Below are positions 29,018 to 53,075 of a DNA stretch of 64,000 bases, piece by piece. Below the pieces are notes generated by a model. The model worked only from the letters and a program-made list of their open reading frames with translations. It did no database searches and was not told the DNA's origin. The stretch's first letter is position 1. Each line of letters begins with the position of its first letter. The DNA comes from Allomyces macrogynus ATCC 38327 (taxonomy: Eukaryota > Blastocladiomycota > Blastocladiomycetes > Blastocladiales > Blastocladiaceae). A program made the translations under genes and the position numbers. Location of the stretch: contig GG745364.1 in assembly GCA_000151295.1 (NCBI GenBank), positions 56,170-120,169 of the forward strand. The letters are read 5' to 3'.

Positions 29018-29172
29018 CCACGAGTAGCCCCTTGCGGTGCTTGGCCATTAGCGTCAGCTGCGCCGACACATCGACCTGGCACGATCCAAGCGGCTTGGCA
29101 CCACCTCAACAAGTCTCTGCCCGGTTCCCGCAGGGGCCAGCATGTCTAGCAAAGGCCAAGGTCCCCACAGCA

Positions 29173-30615: not shown

Positions 30616-31195
30616 GTGAAAGCGGTGGAGGATGCGCGCGTCGTGGATGCGCGTTGCAATCAAGGCGGGCAGCGAGCAAGGCGGAGCAAAGCGATCTACC
30701 GTTCATATGATTCCAGTTGGCAAGGTGGTCCTTGTTCGAATGACCGCGGAAAGTCCAGGAGCGCGTTGATTGAGACGTGCGTCGGCCATGGCCATGGAAC
30801 AATGAAGGTGATTTGTCGCATACAGTATTCCTCGGCTGACCTGGCTGGGCGGGCTTCCATGCTTTGTCGTTTCGTGGGGCCCGCACGCGAAAGGTTATCG
30901 AGTTCAGCGGTGGCACTTGCCAAATGCAGGGAAACGGTGGCACGAACAAGTGACAGCGCCCTTGCATCTGGTCAGCAACTCATGAAACGCCTAGTCGTTT
31001 GGAAACTATCATCTTGGTTGAAATGATGTCTTGCACCAGCACGAACAGGTCACATTCTGCCGCATCCGACTTCCTACACCGACCATGACTTGCGTTAGGT
31101 GGAGAAGAAGGAAAGAATGTTTTTTGAATGTGTGAAGGTCACGAAACAGCTGCGGGAGCATCAGACAGTATCAATGTAGCCATTGTAACCGACAG
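30616..31195. other. Region holding the left inversion breakpoint
   Basis: 580 nt without a supportable gene. The first exon of the MgtA C-terminal half starts at 31196 directly after an intron acceptor (ACCGACAG), but no matching donor or upstream exon is found here. The rearrangement junction should therefore lie in this stretch, probably its right end. Confidence 0.55.
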
Positions 31196-33292
31196 CTTTG
31201 CTTCACGTTCGTCATGGCCCCGTTGACGATCATCATCAACGGGCTCAGTACCCGCGACTGGGGTGCTGCTGCGCTGTTTGGTTTGGCAGTTGCCGTAGGG
31301 CTCACGCCAGAAATGTTGCCTGCGATCGTCAACGGTTCGTAGTCCCGCCTCTTTCTGTTTATTGCGGTTCCAACAACCCAGTGCTGATCTTTTTCACACT
31401 TCCTGCGAACCTTCTCCACCTAGCGAATCTGGCCCGCGGCGCCATGTCGATGATGCGCAAGAAATGCATTGTCAAGCGGCTCGACGCGATCCAGTCGATG
31501 GGCGGCATGCAAGTCCTGTACGATTCGCCCGTGCTCTTGCGCCCCTTTCTCCCGAATCTAGGTTATCTCACCCATAGCTCAACACCCCAACTGCAGATGT
31601 ACCGACAAGACGGGCACGTTGACCGAGGACCGCGTCGCCGTCTTCCAATGCACCGACGCGGCGGGCGCCGCCAGCCAATCGGCACTGCAGTACGCATACC
31701 TCAACGCCAAGCTGCAAACGGGCCTGCGCAGCCTGCTCGACCGCGCCGTCGTCGACGAAGCCACGACCAACACTTCGCACATCGACGCCATGGAACGCGC
31801 GCTCGCAGAATGGACCAAGGTGGACGAGATTCCGTTCGACTTTGCCCGGCGGCTCTTGACCGTTGTCGTTGACCAGCACGACCATGGCGAGCGCCTCATG
31901 ATCACCAAGGGCGCCATGGAGGAGGTGCTCGCCGCGTGCGAGCAGACTGAAGGCGACGGTGGTGAGGTGCGGTCGCTCGCGCACCCCGACCGGCAAGCAC
32001 TCCTCGCACGATCGGCGCGCATCAATACGGACGGCCTGCGTGTGCTCGGGCTCGCGACCAAGGCCACGACCAAGCAAGCCGGACAGTTCTCGCCGGCTGA
32101 CGAGACGGGGATGACGTTTCGTGGGTTTCTCGCGTTTCTTGATCCGCCGAAAGCCGATGCGCGCGACGCGGTCCAGGGTTTGCTGACCAAGGGGATCGCT
32201 GTCAAGGTGCTGAAGGGGGATAATATTTCCGTCACGTTACGTGTTGCGAAGCGGTCGGGATCGCGACAGAACATGTGTTTACGGGTGCGCAGTTGGCGAG
32301 TATGGAACCTCGCCAGTTTGCGGCGGCGTGCCGACGTGGGACCGTGTTTGCCAAGCTGTCACCGTTCCAAAAGGTGGACGTGGTGGAGAGTCTGCAGAAG
32401 GATGCAGGCACGTCGGTCGGATTTCTCGGTGATGGGTGTATTGCGCTTCACGCTCACTCTTTCGTTCATGGTTCATGCTAACTCGACCTTTTTCTCCCAC
32501 TGCGACAGAATTAATGACGCCATGGCCTTGAAGCACGCCGACGTCGGCGTCTCCGTCGACACGGGCACCATCGTCGCCAAGGAATCAGCCGACGTGATCT
32601 TGCTCGAAAAATCGCTCGCGGTCCTGCTCGACGCGGTCGTCAAGGGCCGACGCACCGCAGGTAATACGCTCAAGTACATCAAGATGACGTGCGCCGGAAA
32701 TTTCAGCAACACATTTTCGGTCCTGATCGCCGCCGCGTGGCTGCCATATTTGCCCATGTCGGCCGTGCAGCTCCTGACTGCGAATATCATTTACGACATT
32801 TCGCAAATCTCGATCCCCTGGGACACTATGGACCCCGAGTACCTCGAGCAACCGCGGCAATGGATCGCGACTGACATCGCCCGATTTATGATCTGCGTCG
32901 GCCCGCTGTCGTCGCTCACGGATGTGGCCATATTTTCGCTCAACCAGTACTTTTTCAAGTACCAAGGTAACGAGCCCATGGACGTGGCCCAGGCGCAAAC
33001 GATCTGGTACCTGTGGGCGGTCGTCATGCAAATGGCCGTGATTCCAGTGCTGCGTACGACCAAGTTACCGTTTATTCAATCGAGGCCCGCGCGGCCCGTG
33101 GCCATGACCTTGGGCGTCATGTGCGCGATTGGCTGCTCGTTGCCGTACATTCCGGCGGTCGCGAGCGTGCTCGGCATGGTCCCGCCGCCGCCGTCATACT
33201 GGCCGTGGATGGCGCTGCTGATTGTTGCCTACATGGCCATGGCGCAGACGATCAAGCATTTCTACATCCGCTGGTTCCACGTGTGGATCTAG
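31196..33292 (+). pseudogene. mgtA: C-terminal half of an MgtA-type P3B magnesium ATPase (detached)
   Basis: Exons 31196-31334, 31424-31517, 31597-32435 and 32509-33292. The order matches the second half of Mgt[40 protein letters not shown], phosphorylation motif CTDKTGTLTED, KGAMEEVL, VLKGDN, FLGDGINDAMALKHADVG, KESADVILLEKSL, then C-terminal helices with NIIYDISQISIPWD and a tail HFYIRWFHVWI. The first exon has no start codon and begins at an orphan acceptor. One single-base frameshift near 32240 separates VTLRV from CEAVGIATEHVF. The missing N-terminal half is at 51729-53075 on the other strand. Family identity is secure. Non-function follows from missing actuator domain and first helices, unless the assembly is wrong. 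Confidence 0.85.
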
Positions 33293-33575
33293 GAGCTGTG
33301 GATGGTTTGCGAGAAGGGGGTCAGGGCGTCGAGCGGTTTGGTTTTTTTTACTCTTCATGCTCTGTATCATATCTTGCCGAGGATTGGCCACCCGCCTGAC
33401 TTCTCGTCTCGGCCTCGAGGGTGTCTGGGCGGGTTGGCGAAATACATAAAAGGTGGGCAAGCAAGAGCCGTCATCAACAAGACAAGTTACATCAAAACAG
33501 GACCGCAACAGTGGCTTGCAAAAAGCCTCTACAAGATATCGCCCCACAACACATTCTAGATCCCCCACCCGCCGC
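33293..33575. other. Short gap between convergent genes
   Basis: 283 nt of probable 3' flanking sequence with an A/T-richer patch. No gene. Confidence 0.4.
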
Positions 33576-35303
33576 TCACCATTGACTGCGTCGCGCCAGA
33601 CTCGCCGTGCGCCCGAGCCCCGACGACGTCCTCAACGTCGTCTCCGTCGACGCCGCAACACTCGCAGCCCCCACCAGATCCGCATGCAGCGCAAGCAACA
33701 CCTCATCCCCCTCCACCGGCTCCAGTACGGCCAGTGGGAAAAACCCTTCCGCATCCCCACGCCCCGCGACTTTACCTAGCGCCCACGCGTCGCCGAACAC
33801 GCGCACGACCTCGACCATATCCCCGACATCGAGCCGCAACTCGTCCGGGTTCGTCGGGTTCAGCGCGTGCAAGCACCGTCGCGGGCCCGTGATCATAGCG
33901 CCCGACTCGATCGCGCGAGTGAAACGCGCGAGCGCAGGCGCACCGGCCGACGGCGCGGGGACGGGTTGGAGCATCGAGGTCGGCCGCGTCGGGCTCGACG
34001 GGCGCGGCATCGTCGCTTCTGGTAGTTGCAGTGAAATGCCTGGGCTCGGCTCCGTCTGCAGCTGAGCGGGTGGAGCGAGCGGGACGGCCGGGGGCAGGTA
34101 CAGGTCCGAGTCGCCACCGTCGAGTGGCGGCGCAGACAATGGGCGTGGCTGCGGGCTAGGAGCACCGCCAACGGCATCGTTGCCGTGCATTGGCGGGAGC
34201 GGCGGGAGGTAAAGCCGTGACGGGTCCTGTGTCGGAGCCGCCGTGGTGGGCGTGCCGACGTGCGCGGTCGTGGAGCGCACGGTACCGGCGCGGTCGAGGC
34301 CCACGGGCGAGATCGGTGCGGGCGACGGCGTGCGGTTGGGTTCGGGCGCCGAGGTGACCGACAGCGCCTGCAGGCTCGCAGTGCGCTGCTTACGCGAGGT
34401 CAAGTGCGACATCCGCGCGTCGCTCGGAGCCGTCGAGGACGGGCGGGACCCCGAGTCGATTCCAGGGAGCATGAGGGCAGGCACCGCCGGGTTGAGTGCC
34501 ATCCGGTCCTCTTCGAAATGGTGTGCGCTCACGCGGTTGCTCGACAAATCACCGTGGCTCGTCGAGTCGTGGTGGTGGTCGCTGTCGACCGTGATCACGT
34601 TGGGCATGGCGTCAATTTCCTGCAAAATGTCCTTGCCGCCGTGCTGCTGCTCCTCCTTTTGCATCCGCTTGCGCCGCATCGCCACGAACAGGTACACGAC
34701 GACAGCCGCAGCAGCGATCACGCCGACCAGGATCCCAGCGATGGCGCCGACACTCACCCCGCCACTATCGTCACCGTCGACTGGAAGCGGAGTAGCCGTT
34801 GGGGTACTCGTGCCACTGGCCGCCGAAGACGATGTGGTGGACGTGCTGGACTTGGTGGTCGACGTGGTCTTCTTGGGCACAATGAGCGGCGGCGCATCTG
34901 GTCCCGCCGGGTACCGCACGCCCGTGTCGGTACACTGGCCCGCCGACTTCCAGTTGCGCCAGTCGCCCTGCGACTTGTCGGTACAGTAGAGCGCCACGGC
35001 CACGTCCTTGGTCACGTCTTTCCCGCCTTCATTGTAGACGCCGTTGGAGACGAACGGGCCACAGAACCCGCTCGGCGAGCAGCACTACCGGGTGGAGAAG
35101 GATGGGTCAGCCGCTGCGAAGCGTTCAGGGCATGGAAGTGACTGCGGAACCGCAGCACGTACCTGGTCAGCGAGGCATGTCGAGTTCGGGTTCAGCTTGC
35201 CACACTCGGGCTGGCCCGCGGCGTTGCGGATGAGCAGGCCCGGCTCGGGCAGGCCCTCGGCGCTGCATTTCACCTTGTTCGCGAACGCAGCTGGGATCGA
35301 CAT
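33576..35303 (-). CDS. Chitin-binding (hevein-type) single-pass receptor-like protein with C-terminal SH3 domain
   Basis: Two exons (35303-35163, 35084-33576; intron 78 nt) give 549 aa. The ectodomain has KCSAEGLPEPG, ECGKLNPNSTCLADQ, CCSPSGFCGP and ALYCTDKSQGDWRNW, a chitin-binding type 1 fold. A Ser/Thr-rich stalk follows, then one helix (AGILVGVIAAAAVVVYLFV) and a basic stop-transfer MRRKRMQK. The long Pro/Ser-rich cytoplasmic part ends with an SH3 domain: CLHALNPTNPDELRLDVGD, WALGKVAGRGDAEGFFPLA. A signal peptide is not obvious after this ATG. The architecture resembles Fus1/Sho1-type membrane SH3 proteins but with a chitin-binding sensor outside. Coupling wall chitin to SH3 signalling is inference. 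Intron position matches the paralogue at 26488-28138. Confidence 0.8.
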
Positions 35304-36075
35304 GGCGGTGACTGGCGACTTGAGTGTGCGGTGGCCGGGCTGCTGTCCAAGCTGCCCTGGTTAACCGGCTTGGTCAAAACGGGCCGAACGGTTGGAGGCG
35401 CTGTTCTCGCGCGAGCGATCAGTGCGATGGTCGGATCAAGTTGGCCAGCACGGAGGCAACGCGCGCAGCAAGCAAACGGTGCGCGCGGGGCGGTGCGGGG
35501 AGAGTGCAGGAGAGAGAACGCGAGCGCGCACGCGGAAAGGGACCAGGAAAACGTCCAGAAGAGGTCGTGGGCGAGGTGGCCAGCGCCAGGGACTTGACTG
35601 TTCCTGTTAATTACGCGCGCCACCTGCGCCACCTGTGCCCCGCATCGGCCGAACCTTCATCCAGCCGGAAACTGCCTGCCTTTGGTTTCGGGTCGGTCGA
35701 CACTTCCATTGATCCGCCGTTGATGATGTGGGCGGACCGGAGCGGCCCAGCCTGGATTCCAAGAGGACGTTTTGCGACTGCCATGTGGTGGAGAACGGCA
35801 ATGTACCCTCGCGAGCTGCGCAGCCAGGTCAGGCGCGCCAAGGCAGTTCGAGCACGTATCGCAAACTACAGGATTCACGGCGTGGTCGCCCTAACAACGG
35901 CGCGGCGCACCAAGCCTACCGGCGCGCGGGTGCACCTAGAACTCAATGAGAGTAGAGAGGCCATGGCGGTAGCGTGCTGCCGGCGTCCTCCGGGAACGCG
36001 ATACATGTATTTCTTGGCGAGCCAGTCTCGCCAAACCCCACAACGTGCATCTGCTAAACATCTCTACTGCCGAAA
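35304..36075. other. Intergenic, no gene seen
   Basis: 772 nt upstream of the SH3-receptor gene. One frame near 35560 reads a hydrophobic LFWTFSWSLSACALAF stretch that could be a signal peptide exon, but no splice to the gene is evident. Confidence 0.35.
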
Positions 36076-37923
36076 TCACTTGACACGTACATACTGCCTG
36101 CAGTACTGAGCCATGGTAGGCTCGACAATGCTGTCCTTGCTCCCCCACCCTCGAGCACGGCGCAGTGGTAGCTGTGACTGCAATGGCAACAAAGCATCCC
36201 CTCGGGGCCATGATCTGACCATGGGTTCTGTCACTGCCTGGATTGCTGCCACCGCCTCAGCCAACCCGCACCCACGGCCCGTGCACGAGCCCGACCCAGC
36301 TTCCACGATATTTGGGCGCCAGTAATCCTCGCCAAAAACGGCGCGCCACGCCGTGGTCATGGCCTTGACACCCACCTCGAAATGCGCCTTGGTCGCTGGA
36401 TCGTCACCATCATCGTGGACGACAATAGCATCCATCAGCGTGACCGTGTGTGCCGCAAAGACCGCGGGCGTCAGCTGGTGAGTGTGCCACGCCAGGTCAA
36501 TCGCGGCCGTCGGGACCAAAGCGCCCTTGTACAGGTCGAGCTTTGTCATCGCCAGGAATCTTGGGGTACTGCACCAGAGCCTCGGTCAAAACATGGTTGG
36601 CCACGGCACAGGCACCGCGCACGACTTGTTCGGCCATGAGCTTTGCAAACCGGCGCTGCCGACGCACGGCGCGGGCGAGATCGGGTGTCCACACACCTCC
36701 GAGCACGTCGCAGTGCTCGCGCATCATCCGATGCAACCGGCGGCGGTTGCCGGGAATGACGAGCGAGTCGGTGGCCACCAGGGCGGGTTTCACTCGACGT
36801 CGCCCCAGGTCGGGACCGCCGGCAGCGACACGACGAGCGGCGCCCACACGGCCGCGTCCAGAAGCGCGTGCAAGTCGGCCACGTTGCCGCCGACCTTGGG
36901 TGCAACAGCAGCATCTTGGGGCGCCGCAGCCTGCCAGCCAGGACCGTCGCGCGCGGCACCGCCTGCACCTGCGCGACCTTCGTCAGGAACCGGCGCACGG
37001 CCACGTTTTCGGCCGTGAACGACGCGTTACACGACGCGCACGCGTGCGCCTTTTCGGGCGACCGGAAACCGAAATACTCGAGCACATCCATGGTCTGGTC
37101 CAAGCCGCACGACGCGCACGGGATGGTGGTGCCCGGGCCTGCGACTCGTCGACCGACGCGGGCGTCAGGTCGAACGGCTCGTTGGCGGGCATGAGTGGGA
37201 ACGTGACCTTGATCATGGCCGGGCCAAAGAGACGCTGCGCGTCGTCAGAGTAGCGGACCGGGTTGAGCTGAAGAGAGGGGGGAGCGAAGCTCAGGTTCAG
37301 TCCTTGCCCCCCCTCGGCGGACAACAGGGGAAATCGCCCGCATACAGAACGCGTGCGCGTGCCAGAACATAGCCACGTCGAGCGGCAGCAGTGGCGGGTT
37401 CTCGACGAGCGTCGCGTCCTTGGCAATGGCCTTGCTGAGCGCTGTCGTGAATGCCAAGTAACGCGACTCGCCGCGGCACAAGTAGGCACTATGGACCAAC
37501 GATTCAACAAATGTGTGGGAAACTATCAGCGCCAGCACCGACCATACAGTTCTCCCACTTGCCTCTGCCAAAACAAAGTACGGGAGCAGAAAAAATGTCA
37601 AACGTTTAAGTCCTTGGCCTCGTCGTCCATCGCGCAGCTTTTGGTGGAACGTGACGAGCTGCACCAGGTATCGCGAGCAGCAAGTCGCGCGACACGACCT
37701 CCTGCATCTGCTCGCCAATCACGCCGAGAAGTTTGGTGACCGCGTCCGTGTTGACAGCATCCGCTGTGCCCCCGGCACAGAGCGCATCAGCATGGGCGGC
37801 CAGCGTGTTCTCCTTGGGCGTCAGCTTGCTCGTGGTCTTGGCGGCGACGTTCACAAAGTTGTAGTCCGCGGCCGGGCCGATTGGGCTCACCACGGTCGGG
37901 GGGATTACAGCGGCGGTCGACAT
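36076..37923 (-). pseudogene. DUF1399 / glycine-rich-domain (GRDP)-like gene, multiply frameshifted
   Basis: The ATG at 37923 starts MSTAAVIPPTVVSPIGPA. Recognisable blocks then occur in changing frames: QMQEVVSRDLLLA, YLVQLVTFHQKL, SRYLAFTTALSKAIAKDA, LPLDVAMFWHAHA, NPVRYSDDAQRLFGPAMI, a two-CxxC zinc-ribbon-like stretch (IPCASCG ... HACASCNASF), VADLHALLDAAVWAPL, and AAIDLAWHTHQLTPAVF near the 3' end. The paired W-H-x-H motifs are the hallmark of DUF1399/GRDP proteins. At least five frame changes plus a stop near 36800 cannot all be introns. Either the gene is dead or the assembly is indel-ridden here. It lies inside the putatively inverted segment. Confidence 0.65.
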
Positions 37924-38352
37924 TAATGAATCTCGGTTCACGACGCGCGATGGGTGCGGATGGGTGCGGTCGAATTGATGATTGTGCCCTGGCAGACAGC
38001 GTAAGGATATTTCTATCCCCATGCATGGCATGTCCCCTCATCTCAGGGTCAGGTTGGTGGAGTGCGCGTTCGTCTTGATCGAGGTGGCGTCGCGCGCGCA
38101 GGTTGCCGTGACAATGGAAGATTAACTGGTGGCACGCGCTTTTGGATTCCATCAAATCTGGCATGTCGATGAGCCGTGTTGAAGGGCTTGAGTGGGTTCA
38201 GCGTCCCTAGACATACCTGAAGGCTAGCTGCGAATGATATGAGAGCTCATGTTCGAGAGTGATGACGAAGACTCAGCTCAGTGCCAACACGGCCACGAGA
38301 TGGCTCAGAAGCCTGAACCAAACGGGTGGGCAGCAGCAAACACAGTCTCTCT
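37924..38352. other. Intergenic, no gene seen
   Basis: 429 nt, promoter side of the DUF1399 pseudogene and 3' flank of the next gene. Nothing conserved is visible. Confidence 0.4.
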
Positions 38353-39519
38353 TCATTTCTTGACGACAAATTTGAACACAAGCTGTACAATCGCTCCCGC
38401 CAGCGCAAGCAGCGCGCACGGAATGATAATCACCCACGCCTTCCGCTGAACGATGACCAGGTTGACAGCCGGTGCAATTGCAATAAGCGTGAGCGCAATC
38501 TCGTCACCCGTCGCAGTCGCCGTATTTACTGCCGCCGTCGCGGCGGGACCGTTGGCGACGGGAGCCGGTGCCACGGCCGACTCGAGCGCGCGGACCAAGG
38601 CGAGCTTGAAAACGAGTCGGGAATTTTCTCCACCGCCGCCAAAGCATTGGCAGCACGCTGCGGGGCAGCAGCATGCGCAACATGGCTGCAGCTCGTAGTG
38701 CCGCATGAGCAGCGTGTAATGCGTCCCCTCAACGGGTGAGCTCGATGCGTTCGCGGCCGCCGTCTGGTCGAGCGGGTAGTTTGGGTACAGCAACCGCGCT
38801 TCCCATTCGAGATGCTTGTTGAACCAACCCGCCGTTTCGGTAATGAGGATGCGGTGGCCGCGGATCGTGACCACCGTGCTGACGCGCGAAAATGCGGGGA
38901 GATGCGGGACCGTCACGACCATTGGAGCAACGTCTGGTGGCGGCACTGGCGGGGCACATTCGGTCGGGACGCCGGGCGGGAGCGACGACAGGGGCATGTC
39001 GGGCGACGCAACGCGCTGCTTCTTGTTCTTCTTGGCGGCCTTTTCGGCCTCGGTAATGGCACGCTGCTGGTTCACGTACGTGACTTGGTCCGCCAACATG
39101 TTCGCACGTGCCAGTGCCGAAATCGTCACGGCCGTCCCGTCTCGCCCAGCGCGTTTCTGGACTTGCACGAGCGCCTGCGCGTCGGCAGCCGGTCGTCGCC
39201 ACGGCGCGACACTGCTTGGTAAACAGTGGATGGCCAAGGACCCCGACGGTTTGCGACTGTCGCCCGATCCGGTCATTTCGAAAATGGCCGTCAAGACATG
39301 AGATCCCGCGAGAATGGCGTTGAGGGCGCGCGGCACGTCAAAGAATGTTGTGGTCTTCGGATCGATCCATCCCGGTTGATACGGCGCGATTTTCTCGGTC
39401 TTGACGGGCTTGGGCATGCGCGTCATGTCGTCGTCGTCAGTGACGATGGAGATGCGCACGCCTTTCTTGGAGCCGTGTTCCCATTCGTGAATGGCAAAGC
39501 GGGCTTGGTCCAAGGCCAT
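38353..39519 (-). CDS. Cysteine-cluster membrane protein, unknown family (tandem copy A)
   Basis: Single exon of 388 aa from the ATG at 39519. The N-terminal half contains PYQPGWIDPKTTTFFDVPRA, AGSHVLTAIFEM and ISALARANMLADQVTYVN. The middle contains a Lys-rich linker, a Pro-rich loop and STVVTIRGHRILITETAGWF, then LEWEARLLYPNYPLDQT. A striking cluster QPCCACCCPAACCQCFGGGG (nine Cys in 20 residues) precedes two hydrophobic stretches and a basic tail ending VVKK. The di-lysine-like end could signal ER retention. The Cys cluster could bind metal or be palmitoylated. It has no domain I recognise. Copy B lies 600 bp to the right in the same orientation. Confidence 0.75.
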   Translation of the reverse strand: MALDQARFAIHEWEHGSKKGVRISIVTDDDDMTRMPKPVKTEKIAPYQPGWIDPKTTTFFDVPRALNAILAGSHVLTAIFEMTGSGDSRKPSGSLAIHCLPSSVAPWRRPAADAQALVQVQKRAGRDGTAVTISALARANMLADQVTYVNQQRAITEAEKAAKKNKKQRVASPDMPLSSLPPGVPTECAPPVPPPDVAPMVVTVPHLPAFSRVSTVVTIRGHRILITETAGWFNKHLEWEARLLYPNYPLDQTAAANASSSPVEGTHYTLLMRHYELQPCCACCCPAACCQCFGGGGENSRLVFKLALVRALESAVAPAPVANGPAATAAVNTATATGDEIALTLIAIAPAVNLVIVQRKAWVIIIPCALLALAGAIVQLVFKFVVKK

Positions 39520-40116
39520 AGTGGAGCAGGCGCAATTGCTGAACATGCAAAGATGAGCAGTCGAAGGTCCACGAGAGGCAGGAGTGGCAGGAGGGGTAGG
39601 TAGTAGTGCAAGGGAGGAGACAGGGCAATGGACATGCTGGATTTGTGGGCGCGTTACTTTTTGAGGCGGAGGATTAAGGCGACATGGAGGTGAATGTGGA
39701 CGTAGAAGTTCGGCCGAAACGCCGGACTGAGACACAGGTCGCGAGTGCGTTGCCAAGTGCCGAGGGCCAGACTGACGAGAGCGTGCGACGCATCCAGCCG
39801 ATACGCGCATTGCGACCGAGTCCCTGGTTTTAACGATCCAGTGGCGGCCGTCTTTGTGCGGCTGGGCTGAGGTGAAGACGAGCAGGAAGATGATATGGTC
39901 GGTGCGCCGCCAACCGGTCACTCAGCCCAAGGGCGCGGTCCGCGGGCGGGGCGCATCCGCATCTTCATCGACGATACGCGCATGAAACAGAGGTCCCTGA
40001 TTTTGTTCCTTTCCCGCGCATACCGGTTGTCGTGGGAATGGGCGGAAGTGATCAAGAAGGGCCTCGTGATAGTTTGTGGCCGCGCTGGCATGGCGCACCC
40101 ACCCAATGTATTCTGG
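39520..40116. other. Spacer between the two Cys-cluster paralogues
   Basis: 597 nt serving as the promoter of copy A and 3' flank of copy B. A minus-strand frame upstream of copy A stays open but is not conserved in copy B, so I treat it as non-coding. Confidence 0.4.
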
Positions 40117-41322
40117 TCAATACTTGGCGATCGCCAAGATGATGCGCAAAAGGACAGCAACAGCAGCCAATGCCATGAAGGGCATGACGATTACCCATGC
40201 CTTGCGCTGCACGATGACCATGTTGACTGCCGGCGCAATCGACACCAGAACAAGAACGATTTCGGGTCCCGTCGCGCGCGCCTTTTCCGACTTCTCCGCT
40301 GGCACCAATCCCGCACTCGACAGCGGCGCGACCGTCGTCTCGAGCGCGTTCATGATACCAGGCTTGATGACGAGCCGCGAATTGAGCGCCGCGCCGCCAT
40401 AACACTTGCAGCAGGACCCGTTGCAGCAGCAGGCACAGCACGGCTGAATCTCGTCGTGTCGCATCAGCAGCGTGTAGTGCACGCCCTCGACCGGCGTGCC
40501 CGAGGGCGTTGAGCTGTCGGCAGGGGTCACGACACGCGGCGCGACGCTCAACACCGTGCGAGATTCGGAGCCGCGTGTGTTGTTGAGCGGGTAGTTTGGG
40601 TAGAGCAACCGCGCCTCCCACATGACGCGCTTATTGAACCACCCGCCCGTCTCGATAAACAGGATCCGGTGGCCGCGGATCGTGACCACGACCTTGACGC
40701 GCGAGTACCTCGGGAGCTGCGGCACGGTGATGACGAGAGGGTCCACGCCTGGCGGGACCGTAGGTGGGCCAGGTGGACCGCCTGGCATTCCGGGAGCCAC
40801 CATGAGAATGGGCGCGGTCGTGTTCTTGCCCTTGTTCTTCTTGGCCGCCGTTTCGGCCTCCTTGTACGCGCGCATCTGGTTCACGTACGTGACCTGCGCC
40901 GCGAGCAAGTTCGCACGCGCGAGCGCCGAAATGGAGACCATCGTGCCGTCGCGCCCGGGACGCTTGCGTACTTGCACGAGTGCCTGTGCTGCGTCGACAG
41001 GTGGGCGCCAGGGCTCGGCGTCGCGCGGCAGGCACGAAATGTCCATGTCACCATTCGGTTTGCGCTTGTTGCCAGAGCCCGACATGCCGTAGACGGCCGT
41101 GAGCACGTGGGTGCCGGCGAGCAGCGCAGCAACGGCGCGCGGCACGTCAAAGAACGTGGTGGTGGTCGGGGCAATCCACCCGGGCTGGTACGGGGCAACT
41201 TTCTCGGTCACGACGGGCTTCGGCATGCCCGCAATCTCGTCGTCATTGCTGACGACGGAAATCCGGAGGCCGCGATCCGTGCCGCAGGCCCATTGGTGCA
41301 GAGCGAGTCGCGCGTGATCCAT
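40117..41322 (-). CDS. Cysteine-cluster membrane protein, unknown family (tandem copy B)
   Basis: Single exon, 401 aa. It aligns with copy A along its whole length: PYQPGWIAPTTTTFFDVPRA, AGTHVLTAVYGMSGSG, ISALARANLLAAQVTYVN, VVVTIRGHRILFIETGGWFN, MWEARLLYPNYPLNNT, HYTLLMRHDEIQPCCACCCN, then GSCCKCYGG, IAPAVNMVIVQRKAWVIV and a C-terminal hydrophobic segment ending IAKY. Divergence is concentrated in the Pro-rich linker (APGMPGGPPGPPTVPPG here) and in the loop before the Cys cluster. The strict conservation of Cys spacing and of the VQRKAWVI(V/I) segment argues that both copies are functional. Family and function are unknown. Confidence 0.78.
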   Translation of the reverse strand: MDHARLALHQWACGTDRGLRISVVSNDDEIAGMPKPVVTEKVAPYQPGWIAPTTTTFFDVPRAVAALLAGTHVLTAVYGMSGSGNKRKPNGDMDISCLPRDAEPWRPPVDAAQALVQVRKRPGRDGTMVSISALARANLLAAQVTYVNQMRAYKEAETAAKKNKGKNTTAPILMVAPGMPGGPPGPPTVPPGVDPLVITVPQLPRYSRVKVVVTIRGHRILFIETGGWFNKRVMWEARLLYPNYPLNNTRGSESRTVLSVAPRVVTPADSSTPSGTPVEGVHYTLLMRHDEIQPCCACCCNGSCCKCYGGAALNSRLVIKPGIMNALETTVAPLSSAGLVPAEKSEKARATGPEIVLVLVSIAPAVNMVIVQRKAWVIVMPFMALAAVAVLLRIILAIAKY

Positions 41323-42029: not shown

Positions 42030-42234
42030 GGACTCGAAAACACTGCTCAACTGTCGTTTGCAGAAAAAAAAAAGGATTTTACTCCAATAAACATAGCACA
42101 CATGCCAGGCAATTCGCAATGAGCATTATCCAAAATCAAAACCGAGTGCAACCCCCTTCACTCACTGCTGTTTACACTCCGGTGGCGGGGCCGGCATCCC
42201 CGTCGACTTCTTGATTTGCGGGTTCGCGGTGCCT

Positions 42235-45200
42235 TCAGCTGGCGGCTTGATAACAGCACTCAAAGATGCACTGGACCTTGCTCCCGCCGCTGGCCGGTTC
42301 GCCAAGATCGCGGACCGGAGCGACGCCGGCAATGTGTTTTCGATCCCTGGCGCAGCGGCCGCTGGCGCCTTCTTGCTTGCGCGCTCGTACCGTCGCATCG
42401 GCACGGGAACGAGCGGTTCCACCGCTGGTGGCGTGGACATGGAGACCGCAGTACCATTGGCCACGACCTCCCAACGGGACGCGGCTGGGCTTGGTGGTCT
42501 CGGGCGAAATGACGATTGGCGCCACTTTCACTGCCGGCACGGGCGTCGCGGACCCGACGCGCGACGAAGATCGCGGCGCCGACACCGGGTCCGAGTTCGG
42601 GAACAGCGACGACAGGTCGCCACCGCCATCGCGCAAAATATCCTTGGCCGACGGCGCCCGCTCGCGCTCGCGCGCCCGGCGCGCCTCCTCGGCAAGTTGC
42701 TTCTCGAGGGCCGTGATCGTGCGTCGCGCCGCCTCGAGCTCGGTCGCGAGCCGCTTAGATTCGCGCTCCGCAGCCTGGAGCGTGCCAATATCAAGTTCAG
42801 CGAGTGCGCGGGAGGGCGCAAGCGCAGTCATATGGTCACGGACGCGCTCCAGCTCCGCGACTTGCTTGTCGCGCAACTCCACTTGCCCACGCCAGTGCGT
42901 GACCTCGGCCTCGAGCGCACGCACCATGTGCTGGTGCTTGGTCACGTCGCGCTCGAGCGCCTGCGCGTTCCGCGACTTGGACTCCATGGGCGCGAACTTG
43001 GCCCGCAGCGCGGCGAGTGTCTCCTCGGCGGCCGTTTTACTCGCTTGCAACTCGGTGTTCTCGGACCGCAGAAGCTTGAGGTCAATCGCCTGTTGCGCCG
43101 CGTCGCGCTCGAGAGTCTCGAGCCGCGCTTGCAGTTCCTGCTGCTGCTCAGCGGCGACGCGCTCGAGCTCGTCGCTCCGCGCGCGCGCCTTCTGGAGGTC
43201 GGCCTCGGTGCGCTCGAGAATCTCGCGCACGTCGCGTAACAGCGACACGTGCAGGTCCATGCCCTCGTTGAGCGACTCGTTCCGCGCCGCCGTCTCTTGC
43301 ATCTTTTCGGACTGCGCAGCATGCTCGGCGCGCAGTTGCGCGAGAGCTGTGTCGACCTCGTGCAGTCGAGACTCGAGAGCCGAGTTGGTGTTGCGGTTTG
43401 CAGCAAGGTCGGCACGCTTGCGGTCCAGGGCTGATTGCAAGTTACCCAGTTCGGTCTGTTGTGCGGCACTCTGGTCGCGCAAGTCGGCTGCTTGCCGCTG
43501 CGACTCGCCAAGGTTTGACTCGAGCGTTGCAACCTCGTCGGCGCGACTCGCGAGCTGCGCATTCAGGTGCGCGACGAGCTCGTCGTGCGCCGCACTCTTG
43601 CGCTCCCACTCACGCGCCGCCGCTTGCAATTGGTCAATGAGCGCTGCCTTTTCCTCGTGCGCAGCTGCCAACTTGGTGTTCCCGACCTCGCACGCGGCCT
43701 CGAGCTTGGCAATCCTCGTACTCGACTCGGACAGCGCGTTACTGGCCTGGTTGAGCGCCGCCGTCGCCGCCTGCCACTGTTCCATGGCCACATTGCGCTG
43801 CTGCTCGACCTCGGCAAACGTCGCGGCATGTTGGATCTGCGCCTCGGCCGCGGCCGCACGCACCGCCTCGAGTTCCTGGGCCTTGACTGCCGCGTCGGCC
43901 GTCATGGCCTCGATCGTCTGCCGCAACTGCATCCGCGCCACGTCGTTCACGTCGGCCGTCTCTTGCATGCGCTCGGCCAACTTCCGTGCGCCCTGCAGTT
44001 CCGTCTCCAGGGCCGCGACTTCGCGCTCGACGTGCTGCAAGTGCGCGGTCGTTGCCTCGTGCTGCTGCTCGAGCGCGGCAATCTGCTCGGACAAAACCGC
44101 ACAATGGGCGGTGAGCTCGTCGCGCGCATGCTGGACGGCCGCGAGGTCAGCGGCCTGCTGCGCCATGACCGCGCCGCGTTGCTCGATCTCGGCCGCGGCC
44201 GCTGCCACGTCGGCCTGGAACCGCGCAATCGCCGCGTCGCGTTCTTCCACGGCTCCCTGTGTCGCGACCAGCTGCGCCCTCGTCTCCTCTAAAGTCGTGC
44301 GCGCCGCAGCCAAGTCCTCGGTCCGATCGGCCAAATCCTTGGCCTGCGCCTCCAAATCGGCCAAGTGATCCTGCAACGCCTGCGTCGTCTCGTCGAGTTC
44401 CGCGACCGTCGTCTCGTGCTCAGTCTGCAACTGCGCGAGCCGGTGCACCGTATCAGCGAGTTCCACGCCCACCTGCGCCTTTTCCTCTTCGAGAACCCGC
44501 GCGCGGTCGGTCTGTGCCACGAGCCGCGCTTCCAGATCAGCCTTGTCGTGCTCGACCTTCTCGATCGCGGCGCGCTGCTCGTCCACGACCGCATTCAACC
44601 GTCGCTCCGATTCGGTCAATGCCTCGACACTCGCTTCGAGTCGCGCAATCACCTCGCTCGCTGACTCCGCCGCCTCGTCATGCTCCGCCTGCATCCGAGC
44701 CACATACTCGTGCCCGCGCTTGATCTGCGCCTGCAACTCCTCGACCTTCCCCTCCAACTCCTCCTTCTGCACGCGCACCTCAGCGTACATCGCGACCCCT
44801 TGCTCGATCCGCGCCTTCAACGCGTCCCGATCCTCCGTCACCTCGCCGTACTGCCTCCCTAGATCATCATGCGCGCGGCGCAACTCGGCGAGCGCCGCCT
44901 GCGCCGTCAGTAGTTCCTGCGACAGTCGGTCGACTTCCGTCGCGGTCGACCGGAATTTCGCCTGGATGTCCTGTTCTGACGCCTGGTGCAGGGCCAGTTC
45001 CTCGACGAGTCGCGCCTTGTGCCGCACTAGTTCGTCGTGCGCGGTCTGCAGCGCGGCGAGCTGCGATTCGACGTCAGTCCGTGCACTGGTCTCGAGGTCG
45101 AGCCGCGCCTGGGTATCGGTCACGGCACTGTCAAGCGCAGCGATCCTTGCCTCGAAATCCACAATCGCACGAGCCTTTTCGGCCCCCGCAGCATACTCGG

Positions 45201-48182
45201 CCGCAAATGCCGCCTGCAACTTGTCCAACTCGGCGTCTCGCGCGGTGACTTGCGCCTCGAGCTCTGTCGCACGCGCCTGCGTCTGCGTCAACTCGCGGTC
45301 CAAATCCGCACCCCGCTCCTCGGCCGAACGCAATTGCCCCTCGCGGTCCTCGACGCGCGCCGTCAAATCCGCAATTGTCTGCGCATCAAGCACGCCCTGC
45401 TCGGTAACCGCCGTGAGTTGCGCGGCCAAGTTCTCGACCTGCTCGTCCAATTCAGCCACCTGCGTCGCGTAATGCTCGCGGTCGGCGGTCGTCGCGTCGA
45501 GCCGGACCATGAGCTCGTCGCAGTCGGCGCGTTTCGCGTCCAGTTGGGTGCGCAAGTCGGCCAAGTCGCGGGTCGCCTCGTCGAGCCGGGCTTGCGAATC
45601 GGCGGTGGCGACTTCGAACTTCGCACGCTCAGTCACGAGTAGGTCACGCGCGGCCGCCAAGTCTTCGCGCGTTCTCATGAGATCGGCCAGCAACTCCTCT
45701 GCGCGTTGCGAGACCTCCGCGAGTTGTCGGTTCACGTCGGCGTGCATCCGCTCGAGGGTCTCGTACTCCTGCACTTGGTCCTCGAACAAACCCTGCAAGT
45801 CGCCGCGTTCCGCAGTCAGCTGCGCCTCGGTCGCGCGGAACGCCGCGACGTGGGATTCGAGGTCGGCAATCTGCGCGAGCCGCGCGACTTGCGCCTGCTC
45901 GACGTGTAGGAGCGTGGTCTCGAGGTGCGCAACGTGCAACCGGAACGTGGTCCGGTCGCGCTGGGCGGCGTCGAGGTCGGCGGCGAGCGATTCCCCACGG
46001 GCGCAAGTCTCCGCGAGTTGTGCGGCGACCGAGTCGCGGTCGGTGGTGGTCGCGGTGAGGTCGCGCTCGAGCCGCGCGACGTCGTCGATCAGCGGTTCGA
46101 GCTCGGCAGTTCGATCAGTCGCGGCCTGGAGTTGCGCCTGCGTCTTGGCCAACGTCGCTGTCAACTCCGCCGCGTCCGCGCGGGACTGTTCGAGGTCGGC
46201 GAGGGCCGCATCGAGCGCGGTCTGAGTCGTGTCCAAGTCGGCTACTTGCGCCTCGAGCTCCGCGATCCGGTCGGCCCGTGCGGCAAGGTCCATTTCGAGC
46301 CGTGCACGCAGAGCGACGAGCCGGCCATGTTCATCCGTCACAGCCGCGAGATTCGCCTCGAGCTCCTGCACCAGATCACCCTTGCGCGTCACCGCCGCCG
46401 CTTCGGCCTCGTACTTCCGCGTCGCGGCCTCGACCTCCTCCGTCATCGCGATGACCTCGGCCTCCAACTCCCCCTGCCGCGCCTGCAACCGCGCAATCTC
46501 GTTCGCCTGTGTCGCCATATCCGCGCGCAACGCGGCGACTTCCTCGGCGCTCGCGTCGCGCTCGCGCGTGAGCCGGTCGATCGTAGCCGCGTTTTCTTGC
46601 AACTCCTTGTTGAGCACTTCAATACGCAGCGTGACCGTCTCGAGCGTTTCCTCGACCCGGAGGCGTTTCGACGACGGCGCGCCGAATTGCGGCGAAGTCG
46701 AGTCGCGCGGCCGCTTCAGGTTCGAGCCGTTGGCGCCGGCGGTGCCACCTTGCTTGGGCGGGAGCGCCGGGAGACAGCTACGGCGGGATGCGAAATCCGG
46801 CGGTCAGTGAAACGAACGCAACGGAGCGAGACCGCGAACAGCAAAAAATAAAAATAAAAATAAAACCGTACCCCATGAGATGCGCCAATTTCGCCTGCAC
46901 CGTATTCGCCATTTCCACGCCCTTCAACTTATCCTTGTGCGCCTCCTCGAGTTTCTTCTGTAGCACCTTAATCGCCGACTCGTACTTTTCCGTCGCCTCC
47001 TCGCCGGTAATCGTCTCGTTCAAAATCGGCTTATTCTGAATATGTTTGGCGCGCGTCGCAAACTGCAGCGTCGAATTGGTATCTTCCAAGTGCGAAGACG
47101 CGGGAGTCACGTTACAGATGATCGCCGTCTTAGCGTTGCCGCCGAGCGAGGGTTGCAAGATGCGCGTCAGTTTCGAGTCGCGGTATGGGATGTGCTGGTG
47201 CATTCGGGCGGGGTCGGCGAGACGCGCGATCACGGAAGTCAGGGCCAGGAGGGATTTGTTGATGTGGCCGCCTTCCTTGAGCCGCGCGCCGTCAGCGTTC
47301 GTGTGCGCCGCGCGCTCGGAGCCGGCGAGATCGACGAGGTTGAGCCGTGCAGAAGTGACGGCGTTCTTGTTGTCGACTTGGTACGACTCGATCACCTGGT
47401 GGAGAAACGAGAGCGGTGAGGTGACGATCGGGTGAGAAGTGAACGAGCGAGAGAATCGCACGCACGAAGGTCAGGATCGTGTGTGACCGACTACTGCGCG
47501 CGTTCATGTCGGTCTCGCCGTACGAACGGTTGGCTAATCATCGTCGAATCGGGTGAGTGGAGACAACGGATTCGGCGACCCCAACAAACGAGCAAATCTC
47601 AGTACCTTCGCCCTGCGCCAACGCGCTCATCACGTCCTTGGCTTTCACGACGAGCAGTTCCGTCACGTCCTTGACAATAATCTGGTTCTCCTGCTCGACG
47701 AGCCGCATATTCGTGTTGTTCGGGTTCAGCAAATCGCGCACGACCTCGTTATAAATCTCGACATAAGTCATGCGAATCGTCCATTCGCGACCCTGCGTCT
47801 TCTCCTCGGTCGTGCGAATAATATCCTCGACCGCCAACGGAATAATGCCGGGTTCCTTTCTGGTCCCCTGCATCGTATGCGTCTTGCCCGACGCCGTCTG
47901 GCCATAGCAGAATATGGTGCCGTTGAACCCGTGCGTGGCCGCATGCACAATGTTTCTCGCGAGGCAGTCGTAGACGTGCGCGTTGGTCGCCGACTGGTCA
48001 AAGACCCAGTCAAACGTGTAGGTGTCGGCCTTGACGTGCTGGTTGCGCGGCGCAATTTGGTTGCCGTGCACGGTCCAGGCGTCGTGCGCGTTGGCATTGT
48101 TCTCGCGCTTGTTGAGCGGGCGCACGCGCACGCCCACGGCCACGTTCTCCTGCTCGGCGGGGCCCGACGGGACCACGAGCAT
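42235..48182 (-). CDS. CENP-E-type (kinesin-7) motor with very long coiled coil
   Basis: Four exons (48182-47606, 47533-47466, 47395-46872, 46777-42235; introns 72, 70 and 94 nt) give about 1903 aa. Motor domain first: VAVGVRVRPLNKRE, P-loop YGQTASGKTHTM, switch I NARSSRSH, switch II LNLVDLAGSERAAHT, then LKEGGHINKSLLAL, IPYRDSKLTRILQPSLGGNA and ATRAKHIQNKP. The ANRSYGETDMNARSS block and overall pattern match CENP-E. A nuclear-signal-like KRPRDSTSP and SSKRLRVEE region leads into some 1250 residues of heptad-rich coiled coil, which in CENP-E links the kinetochore to microtubules. Near 42460 the protein-like frame shifts by one: the alternative tail VVANGTAVSMSTPPAVEP would end at 42162. Divergent from MMM1. 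Confidence 0.9.
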
Positions 48183-48932
48183 GGCGGGGACGGGGTCGGT
48201 GCGGGGCAGCGTGGGACGAGGGCGGACAGGCGTGCGTCGAGATTGCTGGTTGATTGCGGTCGTCGGGTCGGGCGCGCGAACGGGTGGATGTCGACGGGTG
48301 CGCTGGTCCGGACAGAGTGCGGCAAGTTGCGCGTCGTCGCACGGTGCTGGTCGCCGTCGGTGACCGGGCTGAGCTCCACGACAGCGACGCTGGTGTCCGT
48401 ACGACGAGGTGCGAGAAACGAGCCTCGATGGCACGTGGCAGGAAGGTGGATGCACGTGCTTGGGCCAGGGACGCCGTGAGGCACGTCCGCGCAGCACCAC
48501 TCCGCATGCGATCGGGGGACCGGCGCGTCGATGCCGCGAGCGGCGTCGCGATCATCGCGCAGCCACGCTCCACGTGTGCCGCGGCGGGCGCGAGACGCGG
48601 CGAAGAGGCGGCGCGGGGGATAAGCGTGATTTTCACGCGGGGGTGTCCCTGCCTGCACCACCGCAACGAGCGTTTCCTGCTTGAAGTTCTCCGTCGCGGT
48701 GCCGCCAACCACGGCGACCACCTCCTCCTCTTGATTGTTCGCACGCTGCAGCTAGCGCGCACAGCACCACCAGCACCCCAGCAGCGGCACGACACTTGCC
48801 GCAGTCACCGGCCACCCGCTCCTCGTGCGCCCAGGCGCCGACTTCACGCCGAGATCGACCTCCAACCGCGTCCCTGCCGCACCACTCCACGACCTCGAGC
48901 CCAGCGACCACCAACCCGTCGCCCAACGCAAC
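48183..48932. other. Divergent promoter region, kinesin / MMM1
   Basis: 750 nt between divergently transcribed genes. ORFs crossing it are extensions or shadows with no conserved content. Confidence 0.45.
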
Positions 48933-51132
48933 ATGTCTGCTGCCGGCGCCGCGGCCGCCGCGGCCGCGGCTGCCGCCTCGTCCTCGGCCGCTTCGAGCGG
49001 CAACGACGAGCTGCTCGTGCAGCATCTGGTCCACGCCGTGTCCTCGCAAGCGACAGCGCAGTTTGTCAAGGGCCTGCTGCTCGGCATTCTGTTGACCGTC
49101 GGCGCCGCTCTGATTGCTGCGCGCACACTGCTCTTCCACTCACCGCGCGGCTCCTCGTCAACGTCGCGCCAGCTCTTGCTCGACCGCCGCCGCCGCGGCC
49201 GGACCGCGTCGACGCTCGGCACGGCGAGTTTGCGCACGCCGTTACCGCTGCCGCTGTCGTCGCTGATCTTGTTGCATCGGCAGCTCGTGGCTGCCGCGAG
49301 TGTTGCGTCGGTGACCGCGGCAGGAGCTGCTCCCACCGCGGCGCAACAACCACAACCCGACCCCTCCATCCCGCCCCTCGACGCGCCAACCTCGGTCGAC
49401 GGCGAGACGCTCGCCTTTGCCAACTTCCTTCTCGCTGAAGTCCTTGGCAACTACCGCTCGGACCCGCGGTTTATCGAGTGGATCAAGGTGGACCTGCTCC
49501 AGGCCGCGCTCAACAAATCGCTGCCCTCGTTCGTCGACCGGATCACCGTGACCGATTTCCTGCTCGGCCACCACGACCAGTTCCCGCTGTTCCGCAAGGC
49601 GCGGCTGCGACCTGTCCGACCCGACGGTGGCGCCGGCGCCGCGAGGAGTAGTTCCGCGGGCGGAGGAGCGTCGCATCGCGGTGGCGCGACGACGGCAGCT
49701 ATGAATGAGCGGTGGGTACGTATTGTTTTCGACTGTTTGATCGCAAGGTGCGGTTCGCGAATCTCACTCGGTTGGTTCCGGCCGCCTATAGCGCATCGAG
49801 CTCGAAATCGAGCTCGCCAACTTGTCCGAGATCGCCAAGCAGGCGTCAACGTGGACCCAGGCCAACCACCACCATCACCACCACGGCGTATCGACCGGCA
49901 CCGGCGCCCCGTCCGTCGCGTCGCGGTCCTCTGCGGCCACCGGCTCCACCCGATCGCGGAAACTGTCCACGACCGCGACCGCTGCAACCGCTCCACCTCC
50001 CGCCGCCGCCCTGCTACGGTCCCCATCGACAACCACGCTCACAGCCGCATCCACCTCCTCCCCACCACCCCCCGTGCCCGAACCCGACGACCACGACGCC
50101 GACCCACCCCGTTCGTTCCTGGAACTCGGTCTCGAAACACAACTTGTGCTCAACTGGCCGCGTGCGTCGCTCGCCGCGCTCCCCATCCACCTACTCCTCG
50201 AAGTAACCGCGCTCCGCGGCACACTCGCGATCGAGTTCCACCCGGCGACAACCGACGTCGACGGCTCGCCCCTCCCGGCGGTCGTGACCCTATCCCTGTT
50301 GCAGGGCTATGAATTGCAATTCCGCATTTCGTCCCTACTCGGATCGCGGACGAAAGTGCGCGACGTGCCGAAAATCGCGGACTTGATCACTATGACGCTG
50401 CGCAACCAGGTGCAGTCCCGGATCGTCGAGCCGAATTATATCGCGGTGCCGTTACCGGGCGTGCCGGACTCGGTGCCAGCTGCTTTGACCGCGCAGGCAG
50501 TCGCGGGCGCACCGTCGGCTGACGACAACGCGACAGCGTCCGCGCCGGTGCCAGGACCTGCACCGCAAGGTGACGAAGGGCACGTTGGTGACGACGAAGC
50601 CGAATCCGACTCAGCGCGCGCCCCCACTCACCGGCGCACGCCAACCTCCTCCACCTCCGCGTCCGACGACGACCACACCGCATCCGCATCCCGCGCACAA
50701 CCCGTCGTGACCCGCGTAACGAGCACCGCTCCCTCAGCTTCAACGTCCGGTATCCGCCGCCGCCCACCCCGCGCCTGGCCCACCGTCCCATCCACGCCAC
50801 CACCACTCCGCGCCGTCTCCGCCGCCTCGCTCATCACCGACCCAGCCGGGGTGGCGGCAGTCCCGCCGCCACGGCGCGCGGGCAGTTTGCGCGACGTGAG
50901 TGGTGGGATGCCCGCGACCGATCGGGAACTGTTGCAGAGTTCCCCGTTTGCGCGGAGTCAGGCGCGTGCGGCGATGGGGATGGCGGCGGCGGCGGCGGTG
51001 CCGGTTGGAGGGGCGGGGTGGCCCCGGGAGGGAAGTGGAGGTACGGGGATGGGAATGGGGATGGGGATGGCGCGGTCGATGTCGATGCCGGCGACGGAGG
51101 GCGTAGCAGGGGTGCGTGGGCGGCGGCGGTAG
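48933..51132 (+). CDS. MMM1: Maintenance of mitochondrial morphology protein 1 (ERMES subunit, SMP domain)
   Basis: ER-membrane subunit of the ERMES tether that transfers lipids between ER and mitochondria. Two exons (48933-49715, 49792-51132; intron 76 nt) give 707 aa. A short lumenal Ala/Ser-rich N-terminus precedes one helix (FVKGLLLGILLTVGAALIAA). The SMP domain follows: TLAFANFLLAEVLGNYRSD, LNKSLPSFVDRITVTDF, FPLFRKARLRPVRP, then LELGLETQLVLNWPRA, LSLLQGYELQFRISSLLG and ADLITMTLRNQVQSRIVEPN. Two additions are unusual: an insert of about 85 residues within the SMP domain that starts with a six-His run, and a Ser/Pro/Gly-rich C-terminal tail of about 240 residues. Yeast Mmm1 is about 430 aa. 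Confidence 0.92.
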
Positions 51133-51728
51133 CGTCGCGGAAGGGAGGGGAGGAGAAGTGGTCGGCGAGTTGGGATTGGTTTCAGTTGGGTGCTGGCGGT
51201 TTTGTGATGCTCTTGTTGTGTTTTGAATCTGGGATAGAGTGTAGTTTGATGTGAAACGGATGTGCGCCCGATCCGCGCATGCCGATGCCGATGCCGACGC
51301 GGGTTTTGGTGAATCTTGGCTGTCGCCCGTGGCATGGTTGTCCTCATGGTTCAACCGCAAGGGCAGAGCATACATCAGCTCCTGCTCGATCGATGAGCGC
51401 GAAGAGCATACTGCCGCTAATGCTCTATCACTGGAAGAGGGCGGCGTCCAACGAAGGAAGTTCACTCGTCAACACGCGTGGCCAGGATTCGAACTCCAAG
51501 TGGAGGAGGTAAATGACGGGACATGACAGGCGAGTAACGCAGCAACACAAGGGAATGAGACGCGGAGCTCCTTTGGAACATGTATCCGTGGGTGGGGGGA
51601 GTGCGGACATCATGGCGCAGGTGAATCGTCCGGAGCAGCAAAGTGACAATGGAACACGCTGGTCCATGGTGCAACATGATTGTCAAAACGCACCAGCCCC
51701 TCGAACAAAGACCAGAACTTGCGCATAC
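51133..51728. other. Region holding the right inversion breakpoint
   Basis: The N-terminal MgtA half stops at an intron donor (GTATGC, 51728 leftward), but no acceptor followed by the next MgtA exon exists in this stretch. The junction should lie between about 51133 and 51728. No gene is supportable. Confidence 0.55.
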
Positions 51729-53075
51729 CAAAATGTACGAGACGCGGCGCACGCCGCGCTCGAACGCGTTCAGTCCCGGCATCTCCGTCAGTTTTGCTGC
51801 CATCTCCGCGATATAGGTTTGGTCTCCCGTCGCGGCCACGAGCGCCGTGCCCATGCCGCTGACCGCAGACGTCCCCGCAAACCCGACTGTTGTGCGATCG
51901 AGCAATGCCATGTCCTCGTCGCGTTCCACGGCCGACGCCGGAACCACGACTGCAACAGCCAACTTGCCGCGTCGCGCGGTCCTGGCACCTTCTCCACCGG
52001 CACCGACTCGCCCGTGAGTGCCGCCTGCGTCACAAACAAATCGCGCGCCTCGAGCACAATCGCGTCGCCAGGGAACATATCGCCCGCAGCGAGGACGAGC
52101 ACGTCACCAACGACAATTTCGGCCACGTTGATGGCCACGTCACGCGTCTCGCACGTTGCATCGACGCGGCGGCGCACCGTGGCCGTAGTGCTTGTCATGG
52201 CCTGCAGCCGGGTCGCTTCGCGCGACGACCGGTACTCTTGCACGACCCGAATCGCGACAGCGAGCACCGACACGGCCAGCAGGACCGTGAGCGTTTTCAG
52301 GTCGCCCGTGGCGCCGCCAATGATCGCGAGCACGACGAGGAGCAGGACAAACGGGTGTGCGGCCGCGTTGAGCGTCAGGACGAGCAGGCCTGGCGGTGTG
52401 CGCAGCGACATGACGTTGTTGCCAAATTGAACGGCGCGCGCCGTTGCATCCTCAGTCGAGAGCCCGACATGGTCGGCGGGTAAATCGAGCATGGCCAGGA
52501 GGGCAGCACGGTCGCGAATCGTTGCAAGGTCCGCGAGCGACGGGCCGGCATATTTGGCCACGGCTGCCGACTGCTTGCGTGCGGACAGCCGGTGGAGAAG
52601 CTTGTGGAGAACGTGTGCGGGCCTAAAATGCTCGCGATGAGCCTCGGAAAGTGGCGCAACGCGCGCAACACCATCTGATCCCTTCTGCGGGAGCCGCATA
52701 CCAATCGATCAAGGTGTCCACGCGGTCGAAGAATGATGGACGACGGTCAGTATGCCCGTGGCCACTGCGTGACGGGTCGAGCGCGAGCTCAATGTCGTCC
52801 TTGTCGTCTTGATCTTGGTCCCAATGCCGTTTCTTGTCGAGCAGCGTCGTGCCGGGGTCGTCTGCCTGAGCGCTTGGTACAGAACGCAAGGGCTTGGCCT
52901 CGGCACCCACGGCGGGACCGGTTCCGCTGCTGTGCGCTGCGTTGTGGGTGCGATGGCGCTGCAAACCATGGTCGCCGCGAGTCGCTTGCAGCGGCTGTGT
53001 TGATTGGTCATCGTGTTGGTGTGGTCGTTGACGTGGATTTGGCGGGCCGGCAGCTGCTTCAGTGTGGGTCGTCAT
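51729..53075 (-). pseudogene. mgtA: N-terminal half of an MgtA-type P3B magnesium ATPase (detached)
   Basis: Exons 53075-52702 and 52622-51729 (intron 79 nt). A charged N-terminal extension begins MTTHTEAAAGPP. The P-type ATPase N-terminal domain follows (AKYAGPSLADLATIRDRA), then GLSTEDATARAVQFGNNV, two membrane helices (HPFVLLLVVLAIIGGATGD region), the actuator motif QAALTGESVPVEK, TTVGFAGTSAVSGMGTALV and FERGVRRVSYIL. The last exon ends exactly where the C-terminal half at 31196 begins in MgtA proteins, at a GTATGC donor with no partner acceptor nearby. A single-base frameshift lies near 51970, between EKVPGPRDAA and VVVPASAVERDEDM. MgtA-type pumps import Mg2+ and are mainly bacterial, with occurrences in some fungi. 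Confidence 0.85.

Follow-up and report, generated by a model that had tools for sequence, protein, structure and literature searches.

The question raised by this locus is why the reference genome of Allomyces macrogynus ATCC 38327 (Blastocladiomycota) has a gene for an MgtA-type (P3B) ATPase divided into two parts that lie on opposite strands. The DNA analysed, hereafter the window, is a stretch of 64,000 bases (positions 56170–120169 of contig C39, which has 529,267 bases) from an assembly of 54.0 Mb in 75 contigs. An earlier note on this DNA had proposed a single inversion with both breakpoints tied to the same intron of the gene and, as the alternative, a misorientation in the assembly. 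The comparisons reported here make it probable that a lineage-specific inversion of about 20.6 kb, sealed by end joining, made a pseudogene of the mgtA-type gene in A. macrogynus.

The two halves of the mgtA-type gene

The gene and the broken intron are laid out in the window as follows.

51729–53075, minus strand: N-terminal half of the mgtA-type gene, with exons 53075–52702 and 52622–51729 and one intron, 52701–52623 (79 nucleotides, nt)
51640–51728, minus strand: 5′ part of the broken intron, with the donor GTATGC from 51728
31106–31195, plus strand: 3′ part of the broken intron, with the acceptor CGACAG at 31190–31195
31196–33292, plus strand: C-terminal half of the mgtA-type gene, with four exons, three introns (31335–31423, 89 nt; 31518–31596, 79 nt; 32436–32508, 73 nt) and a stop at 33292
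31150–51700: putative inverted segment of about 20.6 kb with approximate ends, placed by the split of the gene, the protein of A. arbusculus and neighbouring locus tags

Both halves were found where the earlier note had put them. The N-half ends at its donor after the residues SYIL, and the first exon base of the C-half, 31196, follows directly on the acceptor (CGACAG, then CTTTGC). The four whole introns modelled in the gene all have GT-AG ends, and with their lengths (73, 79, 79 and 89 nt) as a yardstick the right breakpoint would lie within about 90 nt of the donor at 51728 and the left breakpoint within about 90 nt upstream of the acceptor. Both edges of the junction are in phase 0. A search with the joined protein scored 7997 candidates and found 7201 proteins, 120 of which were listed and used as homologues; in the alignment with these 120, 0 columns separate the junction residues, and no residue is lost or repeated. 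The claim that the two edges are adjacent in MgtA proteins was thereby borne out. By comparison with MgtA, the junction presumably falls in the third transmembrane helix.

Protein search, Pfam and tree agreed that the nearest relatives of the joined protein are MgtA-type ATPases over the whole length, and magnesium-translocating P-type ATPases were among its best matches. The Pfam domains are divided between the halves: Cation_ATPase_N and E1-E2_ATPase fall in the N-half, whereas the C-half contains Cation_ATPase and Cation_ATPase_C.

Order of the genes in relatives

The top match of the joined protein was GGF31_005955 of Allomyces arbusculus (P0001; 986 amino acids, contig of 203,958 bases), with 93 % identity at 95 % query coverage. 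This predicted protein is continuous across the junction (RRVSYIL-LCFTF) and across both places at which the A. macrogynus halves slip out of frame. Within the limits of a gene model, the sister species appears to have the joined gene, and the proposal that an inversion moved the C-half from its place after the N-half is thus backed on the mgtA side by an intact predicted protein. Because this comparison is with a predicted protein and not with DNA, we infer the breakpoints and the ancestral intron.

The other side of the inversion concerns MMM1 and the genes of the left flank (26.5–30.7 kb), which would be brought together by flipping the segment back.

48933–51132, plus strand: MMM1 gene (AMAG_15056), the rightmost gene of the segment
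26488–28503, minus strand: left-flank open reading frame (ORF), outside the inversion, with homologues AMAG_11207 and, in A. javanicus, GGF32_007888
29143–30702: two short, related left-flank genes in facing orientation (relation by tblastn, extents by eye)

A. macrogynus itself has AMAG_11207 as homologue of the left-flank ORF and AMAG_11209 as homologue of MMM1, two tags apart on one contig listed with 1,010,422 bases. By their tags these genes are near neighbours, as flipping back predicts; their neighbourhood is known by locus tags only, and the DNA beyond AMAG_11207 reads N. AMAG_11207 maps to contig C52 (116297–118122), with 100 % identity over residues 81–415 and 73–83 % for the remainder, in other frames. 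C52 is a duplicated counterpart of the window, matching it at 12946–19763 (81 %) and 26387–28194 (85 %), and its size differs between listings, with 971,771 bases in the searched genome and the larger number given above in the protein record. A search of the visible genome for the MMM1 homologue gave three matches, all to the window's own copy, and the homologue was absent from the visible stretch of C52 on the other side of AMAG_11207 (107.9–118.1k). With the tags two apart, its most probable place is past 118.1k, where the flip would put it. In A. javanicus, GGF32_007888 and mmm1 are both listed with a contig of 133,279 bases, mmm1 without a tag, so that their order cannot be read; the shared contig agrees with the inversion without giving the gene order.

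The left-flank pair sits between the left-flank ORF and the left breakpoint and, judged by eye, has broken frames; a third relative of these short genes is present on C52 at 115.7k. Two further pieces of the window that lie 12 kb apart, 24072–25294 and 37372–37822, match pieces of C52 (88131–90093) only about 275 bases apart, the first at 88.1–89.4k and the second after that interval. P-type ATPase genes of A. macrogynus were also found in pairs with equal or near-equal scores on different contigs.

Condition of the gene

Two kinds of damage that the earlier note does not name were seen, frame slips and a changed motif. Each half carries a one-base frame slip, near 51958–51973 in the N-half and near 32240 in the C-half. 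P-type ATPases are recognised by motifs named TGES, DKTGT, TGD and GDGxND. In the joined protein TGES, DKTGT and GDGxND (as GDGIND) are intact; the codon at 32213–32215 replaces the threonine of TGD with lysine (KGD), a position at which 119 of the 120 homologues have threonine and one has a gap. The gene is therefore like MgtA/P3B ATPases in its best matches and in three of these motifs, and unlike them in being split, frame-slipped and altered in TGD; it has neither a reading frame that is continuous after splicing, owing to the two pieces and the slips, nor the TGD motif of a P3B pump.

No second MgtA was found in the visible 54.0-Mb genome, in which part of C52 reads N. The 17 matches consisted of the window's own and 16 others at 29–35 % identity, which are probably other P-type ATPases. 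The inversion was thus not contradicted by a complete second mgtA elsewhere. From its sequence the mgtA-type gene has most likely died, and not long ago.

The breakpoints and the possibility of misassembly

The earlier note had suggested a search for inverted repeats shared by the two breakpoints, and none was found: the breakpoint regions (30700–31196 and 51140–51729) have no word of at least 9 bases in common, direct or inverted. At 8 bases they share seven inverted words (mean 3.9 in 200 single-base shuffles) and four direct ones. None of the 25 longest among 156 inverted pairs in the window was a breakpoint repeat, and within each region alone only short direct repeats of 12–27 nt were listed. 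An RNA gene at a breakpoint was ruled out, the sole match in the window being a tRNA-His gene near 6194–6276. The 403-base piece that holds this tRNA gene (6143–6545) has an inverted copy, 100 % identical, about 10 kb away at C39:52250–52652, and shorter relatives at 85–87 % on contig C5.

The alternative that best survives these results is an assembly error, in which the segment would be misoriented in the reference and the strain would have an uninterrupted mgtA. The gene order expected from relatives would indeed restore the gene. N runs occur in six of the compared A. macrogynus loci, one of them exactly 100 bases long (not every run need be a gap), and patches of one-base differences were seen. 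There is no N at the junctions or anywhere else in the window, where a gap would be visible as N, and no repeat is common to the breakpoint regions, so that two independent false joins at reciprocal places would have been needed. An error would also leave the lysine in TGD unexplained. Misassembly, which the earlier note had named as the alternative, is consequently unlikely, and it is the need for two reciprocal false joins that keeps it from being rated higher. No report of this inversion was found in the titles and abstract beginnings searched, and no paper on how the A. macrogynus assembly was made was recognised among them.

Polymorphism and trans-splicing

Somewhat less likely than misassembly is a real but polymorphic inversion, in which this strain or other isolates would also have the standard order and a working gene, and the assembly would show one of the two arrangements. 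ATCC 38327 is called polyploid, with 53.1 % duplicated BUSCO genes, in one paper (PMC5628827), which speaks for this reading. Against this stands the failure to find a second MgtA in the visible genome, where the homeologous contig is partly N.

It is very improbable that the split gene still works, its halves being transcribed separately and its half-introns joined by trans-splicing as in Giardia. The idea draws on the retention of the donor and the acceptor in the same phase, on the GT-AG ends of the other four introns and on a divergence from the A. arbusculus protein that is not clearly raised. The split introns described in Giardia (PMC5224939, PMC8494341) are alike in that the break in the gene falls within an intron, with the donor far from the acceptor. 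Trans-spliced half-intron pairs of Giardia are reported to show complementarity (PMC5224939), whereas the Allomyces half-introns lack it. Their best duplex, with 150 nt from each side, reached −56.3 kcal/mol. Stronger duplexes were formed by 98 % of 300 shuffled pairs (mean −67.5 kcal/mol) and by 98 % of 500 pairs taken at random from the window (mean −91.2 kcal/mol), and pairing of the half-introns was rejected. Both halves are moreover frame-slipped, and a catalytic motif is changed by the lysine in TGD. Given the weak pairing and the damage to the gene, there is scarcely any likelihood that a split intron like those of Giardia has newly arisen here in a fungus, with a pump still made from two transcripts of opposite strands and slips that are sequencing errors. 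Origin of the halves as independent fragments of two mgtA genes was rejected, a second MgtA not being visible.

Weighing the inversion

A real and recent inversion that broke a gene is the most likely explanation, an event of an ordinary kind in an unusually clean case. A single inversion of about 20.6 kb would have arisen in the lineage of A. macrogynus after its split from A. arbusculus. One break would have fallen within an intron of the single mgtA-type gene visible, and the second in intergenic DNA that separated MMM1 from the left-flank genes; the broken ends would have been joined directly, with no repeat serving as template. The N-half would have retained the 5′ end of the gene and would now read into foreign DNA past its donor, while the C-half would be without the gene's own promoter and start, leaving a pseudogene. 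We infer that the printed order is that of the strain, that the mechanism was end joining, that function was lost and where exactly the breakpoints lie.

Several points weigh against this explanation. The printed order rests on a single assembly, and the region of C52 that matters, from 118,125 to at least 129,600, reads N. C39 and C52 carry further rearrangements relative to each other, so the homeologue is an imperfect proxy for the ancestor. For A. arbusculus the comparison is with a predicted protein, in which the gene model could mask a break. Sequencing errors may account for the frame slips: compared with the window's copy, the left-flank gene on C52 (AMAG_11207) has ten one-base differences within about 1.3 kb, and nine of these are extra bases. 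This copy adjoins a long N run and is either poor sequence or itself a dying copy; with such differences in another gene, the slips are weakened as proof of a pseudogene.

Rates of change are a further such point. The N-half agrees with the A. arbusculus protein at 331 of 367 aligned residues (90.2 %), and the C-half at 588 of 618 (95.1 %). When the 66 differences were polarised with 29 other homologues, 28 fell to A. macrogynus and 21 to A. arbusculus, and 17 were assigned to neither. Departures from columns conserved at 90 % or more numbered two in A. macrogynus and one in A. arbusculus. In relative-rate tests with five outgroups the speed-up of A. macrogynus was not significant, with changes in A. 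macrogynus and A. arbusculus of 11/10 (P=1.0), 15/6 (P=0.078), 9/6 (P=0.607), 8/5 (P=0.581) and 13/5 (P=0.096). Tip lengths in a quick tree were 0.047 for A. macrogynus and 0.02 for A. arbusculus. Relaxed selection was rejected on the polarised differences and the relative-rate tests, which gave no significant excess. Because there is no such excess and the conserved columns differ by two departures against one, any decay of the mgtA-type gene would be recent or slight.

Other features of the segment and its surroundings

Two further features were placed inside the inverted segment.

33576–35084, minus strand: ORF with a weak SH3 domain beside the C-half (21.4 bits against a Pfam cut-off of 22.9)
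42235–48551, minus strand: kinesin-type gene, with the motor in 46778–47470 and 47538–48551

The long ORF at 42235–46803 is presumably the tail of the kinesin-type gene. Of the contents that the earlier note had listed for the segment, the kinesin motor and MMM1 were confirmed, while the SH3-receptor-side genes and the Cys-cluster pair were not, beyond the one SH3 match below threshold. ORFs 35324–36109 and 36444–37253 had no Pfam match. Tandem paralogues that are 66 % identical, 38420–39462 and 40181–41271, also lie within the segment (38420–41271). Immediately outside the right breakpoint, G+C is lower (0.51–0.55) across 53001–57000, and the minus-strand ORFs 54443–55132 and 55120–55602 resemble each other by eye, unaligned.

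Comparison with known inversions and MgtA-type pumps of fungi

A human inversion of 415 kb is described as disrupting ZNF257 by non-homologous end joining (PMC4591017). It resembles the Allomyces case in that a breakpoint inside a gene disrupts that gene and long inverted repeats are not needed. It differs in size (415 kb against about 20.6 kb), in affecting a human and not a fungal genome, and in the low-identity blocks of transposable elements reported at its breakpoints, whereas no shared repeat was found in Allomyces. In the mesosynteny of Dothideomycetes (PMC3516569), inversions inside chromosomes likewise reshuffle local gene order, as that account has it; those fungi belong to another phylum, and at the Allomyces breakpoints only direct repeats of 12–27 nt were listed.

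Among the matches listed, fungal MgtA-type proteins came from five species: A. arbusculus, A. macrogynus, Blastocladiella britannica, Sorochytrium milnesiophthora (two) and Jimgerdemannia flammicorona. Those noted were P0001, P0003, P0006, P0007 and P0013. The mgtA-type gene of the window contains introns. A phylogenetic tree was reconstructed from 64 rows, namely the window's protein and 63 from the list of 120; it excludes P0002, P0004, P0005, P0028, P0068 and P0095 as well as most of the unnamed rows with odd numbers. Blastocladiomycota formed one group (support 99), Jimgerdemannia stood beside land plants (97), and an unnamed row, P0016, fell among plants. Placement in this tree is tentative, and the program flagged long branches meeting in Blastocladiomycota.

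According to a statement in a 2023 review, no eukaryotic kingdom beyond land plants harbours P3B pumps (PMC10654040), and the abstract of a 2026 preprint mentions fungi in connection with magnesium transport by P-type ATPases (PMC13174805). Early-diverging fungi with MgtA-type (P3B) ATPases run counter to that statement of the review. For users of the A. macrogynus reference there is a caution, as the C-half stands in the public record as a 583-amino-acid protein annotated 'HAD ATPase' (P0002), which is part of a broken gene. Were trans-splicing true after all, the locus would offer a young case from which to trace how split introns originate. As it stands, the case presents, with backing from both sides, a probable inversion without shared repeats that breaks what is apparently the sole pump of MgtA type in a model zoosporic fungus.

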